Shown here piece by piece: positions 12,869-21,802 of a stretch of DNA of 38,669 nt. Below the pieces are notes generated by a model, which saw only the letters and a list, made by a program, of their open reading frames with translations, made no database searches and was not told the origin of the DNA. Origin of the DNA: Deltaproteobacteria bacterium. GTDB lineage: Bacteria > Desulfobacterota > Desulfobulbia > Desulfobulbales > Desulfocapsaceae. The stretch spans positions 1 to 38,669 of the forward strand of contig JAJRQL010000198.1 in assembly GCA_024280265.1 (NCBI GenBank). Direction: 5' to 3'. A program made the translations under genes and the position numbers. Each line of letters starts with the position of its first letter. Positions within the stretch are counted from its first letter, which is position 1.

Positions 12869-13693
12869 ATGCAACCACTGGAATTTATAAAGTATACTCC
12901 CCGGACGAATTGTGGTGAATGTGGCTATGCAGCGTGTCTTGCATTTGCTGCAGCTGTTACAAAGGGAGGTGAAAGACCGGAAAAATGCCCCTATGTTGAT
13001 GTCTCACAGCTTGGAGACGAATTTTCCAGTGAAGATCGTGGCTCAGATGGCCTGGAAGGGCTAGGAAAGCTCCTTAATGAAAAAGATCTTGCTCTGGTAG
13101 CTTATCTGAAAAAAAAGACGAGTAACATTAACTTCAGTGAGGTCGCAGAAGCCATTGGTTGTCACTGGTCAGGCCCTGAGAAAGACAGTCTTCTTTTTCA
13201 ATTTCTGGGAATGGATATTGAACTGTCCCATGACGGTATTCTCATCAATGGTGAAGAGGTGGAGGATCCGCGTGATCAGATCCTGCTGTATAACTATGTC
13301 CATTTTGGCGGTGGAAAGGTACCACAGCAGGATTGGATTGGTATGGAATCACTTCCCAATTCAATATCCAAAGTGAGAACTCTGCGCGTATACTGTGAAG
13401 AACGGATTGCATCTTATTTTACGGGGAAATCTGAGTTGCTGACAGGTGCAGCGCCGGAGATTGGAGCTGTTTTACAGGAGAATCCGGAGCAGAGCTGTAG
13501 TGCCGCATTTTTTATTTCTGCCCTGCCACGGCTTCCTCTTTTTGTGCTTTTCTGGGATGAGGACGAAGAGGACGGGTTTCCTGCAAAAGTAAAGGTTCTG
13601 TTTGATAAAAATGTTAATGATTTCCTGGATATTGAGTCCCTAGTCTTTGTCTGTGAGAGAATGGCCGAGCGTTGGGTTGAGATGATAAAATGA
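12869..13693 (+). CDS. DUF3786 protein with N-terminal 4Fe-4S (CxxCGYxxC) domain
   Basis: YTPRTNCGECGYAACLAFAAAVTKGGERPEKCPYV, followed by a DUF3786-like region (HFGGGKVPQQDWIGMESLPNSISKV). Confidence 0.8.
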   Translation: MQPLEFIKYTPRTNCGECGYAACLAFAAAVTKGGERPEKCPYVDVSQLGDEFSSEDRGSDGLEGLGKLLNEKDLALVAYLKKKTSNINFSEVAEAIGCHWSGPEKDSLLFQFLGMDIELSHDGILINGEEVEDPRDQILLYNYVHFGGGKVPQQDWIGMESLPNSISKVRTLRVYCEERIASYFTGKSELLTGAAPEIGAVLQENPEQSCSAAFFISALPRLPLFVLFWDEDEEDGFPAKVKVLFDKNVNDFLDIESLVFVCERMAERWVEMIK

Positions 13694-14712
13694 ATTCTGA
13701 ATTGGAAAAACTGATCCAGCGGATTGGTGGAAAAAAAATACTGGTGGTCGGTGATATCATTGTTGACCATTTTATCTGGGGAACCGTAAATAGAATTTCT
13801 CCTGAAGCACCGGTTCCTGTGGTGAATGTAACCGAAGAGGACTATCTGCTTGGTGGTGGGGCGAACGTGCTGCACAACATATATTCCCTGGGTGGCGAGG
13901 CCGTTCTTTGTGGCATTATCGGTGACGATGAAATGGGACAGCGGCTTCAGGGATTGCTTGGAGAACTTGGTGCTTCCACAGCAGGTCTTGTGAAGGGGAC
14001 ACGGCCAACTACTGTTAAAACAAGAGTTGTGGCCCAGGGACAGCAGGTGGTTCGTTTTGACAGAGAGCAGGCGAGATCCCCCTCCGAGGAAACCGTTGCT
14101 TCGATGATTTCTTTTATTGACCAGAATATGTCAGGTTTTGATGCTGTTATTATTTCTGATTACTACAAAGGAGTCATAGGGAAAAGGCTGATGGAGCAAC
14201 TTCTTTACCAGGTGGCCCAGGTGGAGAGGGAAAGTGGCCGTCGGATACCTGTCGTGGTTGATCCAAAACCAAGTCAACCGGAGCGTTTTTACGGGGCATC
14301 ACTCATTACTCCTAATCAAACGGAGGCTGAAAAGATATCCGGGGTAGGCATTGATACGGTTGCTGATCTCAAAAAAGCTGCCGATATCTTGCTTTCAAGG
14401 ACTGGCTGTGAGGCGGTCCTGATAACCCGTGGTGAATCGGGAATGGCACTTCTTGAAAAGGGTAAAGAACTGGTGGCTATCCCAACGACTGCCAAGGCAG
14501 TCTTTGATGTGACAGGTGCCGGGGATACGGTTATTGCGGCTTTGGCCCTTGGACTTGCTGCTCGTGGCTCTTTTGCTGATGCTGCCGCGTTTGCAAATAT
14601 TGCCGCCGGGGTGGTGGTCGGAAAGATCGGAACTGCCACTGTTAACAGGGAAGAACTTCTGGCGGTACTTCACGGAGAGGAAGCAGTTGAAACAGCATTC
14701 AGCACTTGTTGA
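13690..14712 (+). CDS. rfaE1: D-glycero-beta-D-manno-heptose-7-phosphate kinase (PfkB family)
   Basis: VVGDIIVDHFIWGTVNRISPEAPVPVVNV, GGGANVLHNIYSLGG, VVDPKP, FDVTGAGDTVIAALALGLA; no C-terminal adenylyltransferase domain. Confidence 0.92.
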   Translation: MNSELEKLIQRIGGKKILVVGDIIVDHFIWGTVNRISPEAPVPVVNVTEEDYLLGGGANVLHNIYSLGGEAVLCGIIGDDEMGQRLQGLLGELGASTAGLVKGTRPTTVKTRVVAQGQQVVRFDREQARSPSEETVASMISFIDQNMSGFDAVIISDYYKGVIGKRLMEQLLYQVAQVERESGRRIPVVVDPKPSQPERFYGASLITPNQTEAEKISGVGIDTVADLKKAADILLSRTGCEAVLITRGESGMALLEKGKELVAIPTTAKAVFDVTGAGDTVIAALALGLAARGSFADAAAFANIAAGVVVGKIGTATVNREELLAVLHGEEAVETAFSTC

Positions 14713-14726
14713 TAAAGGAAAAAGAG

Positions 14727-15608
14727 ATGTCCAGTAAAAGTATGACAGGCTTTGGCTGTGGTGAAACAGAGGCAGAGGGACGAAATTGGGTGGCGGAGAT
14801 ACGGTGCGTGAATCATCGTTATCTTGATTTGAAGATTAAGCTGCCAAAAGGCTATGCCGGCCTAGAAGAACGGGTTCGGAAAATGGTTACCACAGTACTG
14901 ACAAGGGGGCGGGTGGATGTGCAGCTCAGTGTTAGTGGTGATTTCTCAGATCTTCAGAAAATTGAAGTGAATTCAACCCTAGCTGTTACATATTATAAGG
15001 CCTTAACAGACCTCGGAAATGCACTGAATTTACCAGCCAACACCAGTATTTCCATGCTGGCATCCTATCCTGACGTGTTGAATCTCAGGCAGCAGGAGGA
15101 AGATCTCGATCTTGTATGGGCTGCCATGGGCACTGCTCTGCAGCAGGCACTGGCCAACTGTGACAGTATGCGAAGTCAGGAGGGTGAAGCCATGGCCGTA
15201 GATCTCCGTGAACGTCTGACAAACTTTGCCGGTATTGTAAAAAAAATAGAGGCCAGTATCCCTGAGCTGCTCGAGTGCAGAGAAAAAAACCTTACAGAAC
15301 GGCTCCAGAAACTACTTGACAAGGTACAGCTTGATCCGCAGCGACTGGCGCAGGAAGTGGCTGTTCTTGCGGATAAAACTGATGTTACAGAATAGATAGT
15401 CCGCCTTGAAAGTCATATCCGGCAGTTTGCGGCCTTTCTTGACGCAGATGAGGCGACAGGACGGAAGATAGATTTTCTCCTTCAAGAATTTCTGCGTGAA
15501 GTCAACACTATGGCTTCAAAAATTAATGATGCCGAGATTGCTCACCTCACTGTGGATTTAAAGGCAGAGCTTGAGAAGATGAGAGAGCAGGTGCAGAATC
15601 TTGAATAA
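14727..15608 (+). CDS. yicC: YicC family endoribonuclease-like protein, reading frame interrupted by an in-frame TAG at 15393-15395
   Basis: [40 protein letters not shown]...; after TAG the same frame continues [11 protein letters not shown]...[49 protein letters not shown], the canonical YicC C-terminus. Confidence 0.88.
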
Positions 15609-15622
15609 GGAAGGGACGTAAA

Positions 15623-15904
15623 ATGCAACTTATTAATATTGGGTTTGGCAATACAGCCATGGCTGATCGTATTATTGCCGTAATTAATACTGGCTCTTCT
15701 CCAGCTCGCAAACTGAAAGAGCTGGCAAAGGACGCAGGGCGCCTGATTGATGTGACAGAGGGGCGTCGTACCCGTTCACTCCTGATAATGGACTCCAATC
15801 ATGTGATCCTCTCCTCCATCCAGCCGGATACTATTTCTCAGCGTTTAGCGGCACTGCAGTTGGCTCCCCATCTAACCACTACTCAGGGTGGTATGGAAAG
15901 GTGA
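15623..15904 (+). CDS. RemA-like (DUF370) regulatory protein
   Basis: [75 protein letters not shown]; sits between yicC and gmk. Confidence 0.9.
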
Positions 15905-15909
15905 TTGCT

Positions 15910-16527
15910 ATGAAACCAAAAGGACAGCTTTTTATTCTTTCTGCCCCATCAGGAACAGGAAAAACCACTATTTTGAAAAAGGTGATGCAGGAGATTGGTA
16001 AACTGGCTTTTTCGGTGTCACACACTACCAGACAGCCACGGAAAGGTGAAAAGGATGGAGTGGATTATCATTTTGTTACAGTAGAAGAATTTAAGAGTAT
16101 GCGTGATGAGGGGATGTTTCTTGAATGGGCTGAGGTGCATGGTAACTACTACGGAACCAGCAGGATGGCAGTGCTTGAGCAGCTGAAAAAAAGGATAGAC
16201 ATTATACTCGATATTGATGTCCAGGGGGCTTCAATCATTGCTGAAGATGACAGCCAGGATTCGGTGTCGATCTTTGTGGCACCGCCTTCTCTACAGGAAC
16301 TTGAGAGGCGGCTTCGGGGACGGGGAACTGACTCTGAAGAGACCATTACGGTTCGTCTTGGAACTGCTCGGAAAGAGATGGGTTCTGCCGCGAAGTATGA
16401 CTATCTGGTTGTTAATGATAACCTTGATGAGGCGGTGGAAACTCTGAAAGCAGTGCTTATTGCAGAACGAAGTCGTGGTCACCGGCTCCCTTCGGGTGAG
16501 CCCATAGACCTGGAGGCAGGCAGATGA
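15910..16527 (+). CDS. gmk: Guanylate kinase
   Basis: LFILSAPSGTGKTTILKKVM, SVSHTTRQPRKGEKDGVDYHFV, DIDVQGASII. Confidence 0.95.
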   Translation: MKPKGQLFILSAPSGTGKTTILKKVMQEIGKLAFSVSHTTRQPRKGEKDGVDYHFVTVEEFKSMRDEGMFLEWAEVHGNYYGTSRMAVLEQLKKRIDIILDIDVQGASIIAEDDSQDSVSIFVAPPSLQELERRLRGRGTDSEETITVRLGTARKEMGSAAKYDYLVVNDNLDEAVETLKAVLIAERSRGHRLPSGEPIDLEAGR

Positions 16528-17480: not shown

Positions 17481-17496
17481 TGGTATGCTTGTTGCT
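17481..17496 (+). promoter_or_regulatory. Putative sigma-54 (-24/-12) promoter for the Gly-rich gene
   Basis: TGGTATGCTTGTTGCT fits TGGYAYRNNNNTTGCW with correct GG/GC spacing, 112 bp (to GG) from the activator-like motif. Confidence 0.6.
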
Positions 17497-17559
17497 TTAG
17501 TGTGTCCAGTTTATATATCTTTCCATAACGGGAGGATTATTTTTAACAGGAGATACTTT

Positions 17560-17931
17560 ATGAAACTCTCAGCAAAGTACATGAGAACATTTGTTTTGGC
17601 TTCAGCAATGAGTCTGCTCACAATTCCAGCAATAGCCGGTAATGGCCATGGTCCTGGTAACGGCAGTGGCAACTCTGGGAATGGCCCGGGAGACGGAACC
17701 GGAAATGGCCAGAAAAGCGGGACCTGTATTAATGCTATGATCAGTCACCCTGATGCTGTCCTGCTTGCACGGGGTGGTGGAGGAAACGGTGGTGGCGGTA
17801 ATGGTGGCGGTGGTAATGGATCAGGTGACGGCAGCGGCAACGGTGGAGATGGCCCAGGCGATGGCAGCGGTAACGGTCCTGGAGATGGAACTGGAAGTGG
17901 TAATGGAACCGGAGTGTGTCTAACCTCCTGA
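17560..17931 (+). CDS. Secreted glycine-rich low-complexity protein (GNG/GPGDGTG repeats)
   Basis: AGGAGA RBS then MKLSAKYMRTFVLASAMSLLTIPAIAGNGHGPGNGSGNSGNGPGDGTGNGQKSGTC...; signal peptide; two repeat blocks each ending in GTxC/GVC. Confidence 0.75.
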   Translation: MKLSAKYMRTFVLASAMSLLTIPAIAGNGHGPGNGSGNSGNGPGDGTGNGQKSGTCINAMISHPDAVLLARGGGGNGGGGNGGGGNGSGDGSGNGGDGPGDGSGNGPGDGTGSGNGTGVCLTS

Positions 17932-20433: not shown

Positions 20434-21279
20434 GTGAATATGCGAAAAATTACATCTATGACCATGTTTGTGTCATTTTTGTTTCTGGTTCTCACCTCAA
20501 TTATTCTATATATTGTGCCCTATGGTCGTGTGGCATACTGGGCAGGTTGGAAGCTTTGGGGCCTGACTAAGGGAGAGTGGGGTGATCTTCATATTAACCT
20601 TGGCTTTCTGTTTCTGTTTGCGGGCTTTTTGCACATGTATTATAACTGGGCTCCCATTAAGGCATACATGAAGAATCGTGCCAGGGAGCTGAAAGTTTTT
20701 ACTCCCTCTTTTAATGTTGCCCTCCTTTTGACCCTGGTGGTGGCAGTGGGAACCTATTTAGAAGTCCCTCCTATGAGTACGGTGATAAACTTTGGTACTT
20801 CCTTTAAAGACAGAGCATCAGAAAAGTATGGTGAACCGCCCTATGGACACGCTGAACTGTCATCGTTGAAACTTTTTGCAAAGAAGCAAAACCTTGATTT
20901 GTCGGTTGCAATGGAGTTGTTGGCTAAGGCAGATATTCGAGTCTTAAACAGTAAGGAAACACTGGCGGCCATAGCTGCTGCAAACAGGATGAGTCCTCAG
21001 GATATTTATGATATTATCAAACCTGCGGCAGCACAGAAAAGTGTGGATGGGGTCAAGTTTCCAGATTCCCCCATGACTGGATTTGGGAAAAAGACCCTGG
21101 GAGCTTTGTGCAGTGAGTATGAGTTGATGTTTCCCGTTATTCAACAAAAGCTTGCTGAAAGGGGAGTAAATGCTGAGGCGGCAATGACCATTAAAGAAAT
21201 TGCTGCTGCCAACGATAGAGAGCCCATGGGTATTTTTGAAGATCTTCATGAAATTATATATGAGAACCTGGAAAAATAA
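20434..21279 (+). CDS. DUF4405 integral membrane protein with C-terminal helical repeats
   Basis: TM helices with paired His (GDLHINLGFLFLFAGFLHMYYNW); AAGGAG RBS; GTG 20434 or ATG 20440 start. Confidence 0.8.
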   Translation: MNMRKITSMTMFVSFLFLVLTSIILYIVPYGRVAYWAGWKLWGLTKGEWGDLHINLGFLFLFAGFLHMYYNWAPIKAYMKNRARELKVFTPSFNVALLLTLVVAVGTYLEVPPMSTVINFGTSFKDRASEKYGEPPYGHAELSSLKLFAKKQNLDLSVAMELLAKADIRVLNSKETLAAIAAANRMSPQDIYDIIKPAAAQKSVDGVKFPDSPMTGFGKKTLGALCSEYELMFPVIQQKLAERGVNAEAAMTIKEIAAANDREPMGIFEDLHEIIYENLEK

Positions 21280-21280
21280 A

Positions 21281-21802
21281 ATGATGGCCTCCAGCCGGAT
21301 CATGGTTTTGCTTGTGGTGTTGATTTGCAGCAGTACAGGGAGTGCATATGGCCAGGATTTTCTGGTAGGGACGGTTCTGGCTGTGGATACAGAGCAGTTG
21401 GAATTGATGTTGATGGTTCAGAATGGTTCAGAAGGTTCTGCTGCTGATAAAGGGAAGAGTATCCTGATACGTATTGCAACAGAGAATAATCTTCCTTCCC
21501 TCAATAGAAGGACGGTGTTGCCGGGATGTGTGGAAACGGGAGAAATGATCAGGGTGTGGGGACAAAAACTTGATCAGGCTGAGGCGGTTTTTCTGGCCAC
21601 TGATATCAGAGGTTGCAGAGGTGGTGGGTGCTCCGACGCCACTGGAGTCAGATCCCGGCTTCTGAAAAAACGAATGGGTTTTCGGGGGGGGAGGCTTGGT
21701 TTTGAGTTTTCCGGTCAGCATGAACATGGTGCTGAGGATCGTGGTCGAGGGAATGGTGGCCATGGCGGTGGTGGAAATGGCGGTGGAGGTGGTGGCAGGT
21801 GA
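21281..21802 (+). CDS. Exported small protein, possible OB-fold-like domain plus Gly-rich tail
   Basis: Signal sequence MMASSRIMVLLVVLICSSTGSAYGQ; DFLVGTVLAVDTEQLELMLMV...; C-terminal GRGNGGHGGGGNGGGGGGR; tightly packed in the operon. Confidence 0.65.
   Translation: MMASSRIMVLLVVLICSSTGSAYGQDFLVGTVLAVDTEQLELMLMVQNGSEGSAADKGKSILIRIATENNLPSLNRRTVLPGCVETGEMIRVWGQKLDQAEAVFLATDIRGCRGGGCSDATGVRSRLLKKRMGFRGGRLGFEFSGQHEHGAEDRGRGNGGHGGGGNGGGGGGR

Follow-up and report, generated by a model that had tools for sequence, protein, structure and literature searches.

An in-frame amber codon at a catalytic glutamate position of yicC in a draft Desulfocapsaceae genome, most likely a draft artefact

The yicC locus and its interrupted frame

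The window, meaning the whole stretch of 38,669 nucleotides that was analysed, carries a yicC gene on its forward strand at positions 14727-15608. The frame is opened by an ATG at 14727 and is interrupted on translation by an in-frame TAG at 15393-15395. The genes around it lie on the same strand: a sugar kinase-like gene upstream, taken from the ORF list and named by sequence impression (13690-14712), and, downstream, a RemA-like/PRK04323 family gene (15623-15904; NCBIfam NF003315, 3.1e-35, above the cut-off) followed by gmk, which encodes guanylate kinase (15910-16527; NCBIfam TIGR03263, 3.9e-73). Two predicted proteins elsewhere in the window, at 17485-17931 and 21200-21802, contain GNG/GGGNGG repeats rich in glycine and asparagine.

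The 5' part of yicC (14727-15395) consists of 222 codons and the TAG. It encodes the N-terminal domain, matched by the Pfam profile YicC-like_N (PF03755) at 6e-44 over profile positions 2-155 of 156, together with the beginning of the C-terminal domain, YicC-like_C (PF08340). The 3' part (15396-15608) continues in the same frame for 70 sense codons up to a TAA at 15606-15608, and these codons alone match PF08340 at 8.1e-30. This domain is therefore split, with positions 1-49 of 120 before the TAG (5.6e-7), positions 51-120 after it and the stop codon exactly between them. Half-domain matches on both sides of the stop are far beyond chance. The domain is incomplete in the product as written and is completed only if the TAG is read through, in which case the protein is a full-length match to the YicC/YloC family model TIGR00255. 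The first-pass annotation had described an in-frame amber codon with a conserved C-terminus downstream, and both the translation and the two consecutive parts of PF08340 agree with it. No second yicC was found in the genome, so the interrupted copy is the only one.

For the alignment to E. coli YicC (8ver), the chain numbering was taken as the native numbering +2, which puts the Arg211 of PMC10793500 on an arginine. Codon 223, the TAG, then aligns with the catalytic Glu217. The read-through protein aligns end to end with the E. coli YicC/YloC endoribonuclease (TIGR00255; PF03755 and PF08340; PDB 8ver, 8ves and 8hvj), whereas the frame as written stops at the Glu217 codon and lacks the last 71 positions. 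In E. coli YicC, mutation of Glu216, Glu217, Glu252 or Glu281 was reported to abolish activity, and mutation of Arg251 or Arg280 to impair RNA binding (PMC10793500). Because the Glu217 equivalent and all later residues are missing, and the E. coli mutants at such positions are inactive, the truncated YicC should be inactive as well.

A yicC gene was found in 18 of 19 other congeneric genomes; the one that gave no match is an incomplete draft. At the site of the TAG, 14 of these genes have GAA and four have GAG; all frames are uninterrupted, and none of the 18 has a stop at the codon-223 site. Comparison with close relatives, one of the checks proposed earlier, thus places a glutamate codon in every one of them and the TAG in the studied genome only, in agreement with the earlier remark that homologues usually have Glu here. 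A read-through conserved across the genus was rejected on this basis. The proposed single change from GAG to TAG requires an ancestral GAG, the codon of the congener G017 and three others, but the nearest relative, G006, has GAA. Compared with G006, changes at the first, second and third codon positions numbered 3, 2 and 20 downstream of the TAG and 19, 14 and 61 upstream of it. On its own branch the downstream part has acquired one nonsynonymous and ten synonymous changes. Together with the third-position bias, this suggests that the 3' part was under coding selection until very recently, or still is.

Lesions elsewhere in the draft

The lesion survey sampled 663 kb in stretches, about 20% of the genome, and a reference-free scan of 422 kb suggested many split genes. 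In the census, 234 genes of the draft (G000) were aligned to G006, and nonsense codons were counted when 30 or more residues separated them from either end of the gene. Seven internal nonsense codons were found; six came from the filtered census, and the seventh, in a histidine kinase gene, was added from other comparisons, being excluded by the flank rule of the filter. The residue in the relative is Glu for yicC, prfA, a chemotaxis receptor gene and the histidine kinase gene, Trp for mutY, Ser for radC and Asp for pilM. Another eight genes were frameshifted by one or two bases, in most cases through a deletion: ffh, gatB, lnt, prmA and the genes for an AsmA/DUF748 protein, fructose-6-phosphate aldolase, an integrase and a PRK10579-like phosphorylase. 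A stop in dxs, 22 residues from the end, was left out of the nonsense count, and a frameshift upstream of yicC and stops close to gene ends were not counted because they stem from query ORFs that had been extended too far.

The reciprocal test gave at most about four events in 243 genes of G006. Several of these were artefactual: one came from a joint hisD-rsmG query, in which the hisD stop is lost in the studied genome, and two came from query ORFs over-extended upstream. The excess, 15 of 234 genes against about four of 243, is significant even when all four are counted (Fisher p = 0.009). In the near-complete congener G017, queried with the G000 proteins, no lesion was found in 62 genes. 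When G017 was used as the outgroup, the studied branch had 182 nonsynonymous and 1170 synonymous changes, compared with 143 and 1212 on the sister branch. The extra nonsynonymous changes are in the direction expected of unselected errors, though modest in number.

Some further observations were made in the same survey. Three adjacent damaged genes lie at L091:5354-11276 (G000:C223), where the AsmA/DUF748 gene and prmA are frameshifted and mutY has TAG for Trp. At L092:5888-7945, hisD and rsmG are fused in frame; the TGA that ends hisD in G006 is GGA here, apparently a lost stop. The reference-free scan pointed to several more genes that are likely interrupted, with names given by sequence impression: a metallo-hydrolase (L077:9900-10673, LTH*HGDH), a CcmE-like gene (L079:18397-18819), a LivF-like ABC ATPase (L086:16557-17303), a SulP/STAS gene (L086:7795-8640) and a biotin-dependent carboxylase-like gene (L087:5399-7378). 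A chemotaxis receptor-like gene of G006 itself seems to have an internal TAG too (L066:6425, G006:C74; NNVA*AAQGLSEVN).

Three of the damaged genes deserve separate mention. The only copy of prfA, encoding RF1, contains an in-frame TAA (GWKV*VMSSS; L082:3818-4894, G000:C49:23827-24894) at a position that is Glu in both G006 and G017. In ffh, the loss of one base compared with G006 puts the two halves in different frames on one contig (L090:18312-19660), and gatB is split in the same way (L153:7595-9015). No intact second copy of prfA, ffh or gatB was found in the genome. The ffh gene is indispensable for cell life, and a genome that uses TAG to end about a quarter of its genes is not expected to lose RF1. 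Because these lesions in ffh and prfA are incompatible with life or unexpected in a living cell, at least some of the draft's lesions are faults of the consensus, not of the organism.

Draft error or recent mutation

We consider it probable that the yicC TAG is absent from the living organism, or from most of the population, and that it came from an error of the draft consensus or from the mixing of strains. Base-calling or assembly mistakes, or strain mixing, may leave single-base lesions, that is, nonsense substitutions and mostly one-base deletions, in the consensus of a metagenome-assembled genome. By parsimony, the yicC lesion would share its cause with the others, and the natural gene would have Glu at codon 223 and produce the full-length YicC endoribonuclease. 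This reading is favoured by the uniqueness of the lesion within the genus, the genome-wide excess, the damage to indispensable genes for which the genome has no second copy, and the 3' part of yicC, which shows no decay. The lesions also resemble the false nonsense and frameshift lesions of draft metagenome-assembled genomes in being scattered, single-base, confined to one genome and blind to gene essentiality, with the difference that here they are known from the assembled consensus alone. With the terms used, a literature search turned up no paper about premature stop codons in draft genomes from metagenomes.

Some observations count against an error. Of the seven nonsense codons, five were scored at Glu, and random error would not necessarily produce such a bias, although this count takes pilM, with Asp in G006, as a possible Glu, so that strictly four are at Glu and the bias is weaker than its p value of 0.003 (with every route to a stop weighted equally). 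Moreover, the 19 other genes of the window aligned to G006 showed no such lesion, and the completeness (95.97%) and contamination (1.33%) of the assembly are acceptable. In addition, error at 15393 itself is inferred from the other lesions of the draft.

The main alternative, which we regard as possible but clearly the less likely, is a genuine and very recent nonsense mutation that inactivated yicC in the strain or in part of the population, so recent that decay of the 3' codons has yet to set in. Model bacteria can do without YicC, so its loss would be tolerable and the stop could be real. The lesion is confined to a single codon of the studied genome, and the truncation removes residues whose E. 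coli mutants are inactive. If the allele were real, which we find rather unlikely, its product is predicted to end at residue 222, to lack the equivalents of Glu217, Glu252, Glu281, Arg251 and Arg280, and to be dead. On the other hand, the lesions in ffh, gatB and prfA cannot all be real, so the draft carries false lesions, and there is no decay 3' of the stop. The first-pass annotation had left open a sequencing error, a recent nonsense mutation and read-through or suppression; the first is now the best supported, in view of the many lesions that include indispensable genes, the second is possible, and the third has found no support.

Amber decoding, mutator activity and the meaning of the stop

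Some marine Deltaproteobacteria are known to use pyrrolysine (PMC8318568), and the yicC TAG resembles that of their pyrrolysine-containing MttB in being in frame, at an active-site residue and followed by conserved sequence. Unlike MttB, YicC is not a methyltransferase, the TAG is not conserved in relatives, and TAG is a common terminator in this genome. The best PylS match in the genome reached 40.1 bits against a cut-off of 178.15, a level that ordinary synthetases also reach, as similar scores occurred in 13 of 14 control genomes. Neither PylD, for pyrrolysine synthesis, nor MttB, the pyrrolysine-containing methylamine methyltransferase, gave a match. The CUA anticodon was absent among the 39 tRNAs found, in a set that is incomplete (only one serine tRNA, and the rRNA-linked tRNAs missing) and with tRNA-Pyl being atypical, so that a suppressor might be among the missing ones. 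The search for pyl genes or an amber suppressor tRNA, suggested earlier, returned none within this scope, and the pyrrolysine system is unsupported.

The use of TAG points the same way. Of the 182 genes with ends matching their G006 counterparts, 78 stop at TAA, 61 at TGA and 43 at TAG, and 36 of the 43 TAG ends are also TAG in G006; TAG is an ordinary terminator in the studied genome. Amber reassignment, or the reading of TAR as Glu, was rejected, since both TAG and TAA serve as normal stops and no more than a few Glu codons are hit. Whether through inserted pyrrolysine, a tRNA that suppresses amber codons or leaky termination, read-through of the yicC TAG to full-length YicC would agree with the conserved 3' part and its third-position-biased changes. 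Given the results of these searches, the frequency of TAG as a terminator and the absence of a stop at this site in any relative, it is very improbable. That the lesions are real, with RF1 lost through the TAA in prfA and leaky UAG decoding permitting internal TAG codons in yicC and mutY as an early stop-codon reassignment, is hardly credible.

Equally hard to credit is a mutator lineage, which differs from the recent mutation considered above only in its mechanism: the lesions would be real products of a lineage without MutY, whose G:C>T:A changes would give Glu-to-stop mutations such as the one in yicC. The mutY gene is indeed interrupted by a TAG for Trp, at residue 286 of a 396-residue relative and inside the NUDIX domain, and the Glu bias becomes unremarkable when only G>T/C>A changes are allowed (p = 0.29). 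Nevertheless, the substitution spectrum of the studied lineage contains no general G:C>T:A excess, either synonymous or nonsynonymous; the one-base deletions are left unexplained, essential genes are broken, and the mutY lesion may itself be an error. In view of the missing G>T excess, neither a mutator driven by MutY loss nor oxidative G>T error was accepted as the sole cause, despite the Glu bias and the broken mutY.

Taken together, recoding is unsupported, and the yicC stop is most likely a draft artefact or, failing that, a null allele of the ordinary kind. Were the TAG genuine and decoded, a broadly conserved RNase would carry a residue of unknown identity in the place of its catalytic glutamate. 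As it is, a striking in-frame amber codon at an active-site residue, in a group with known pyrrolysine, is explainable by draft quality, and similar breaks in essential single-copy genes offer a cheap filter before recoding is proposed.
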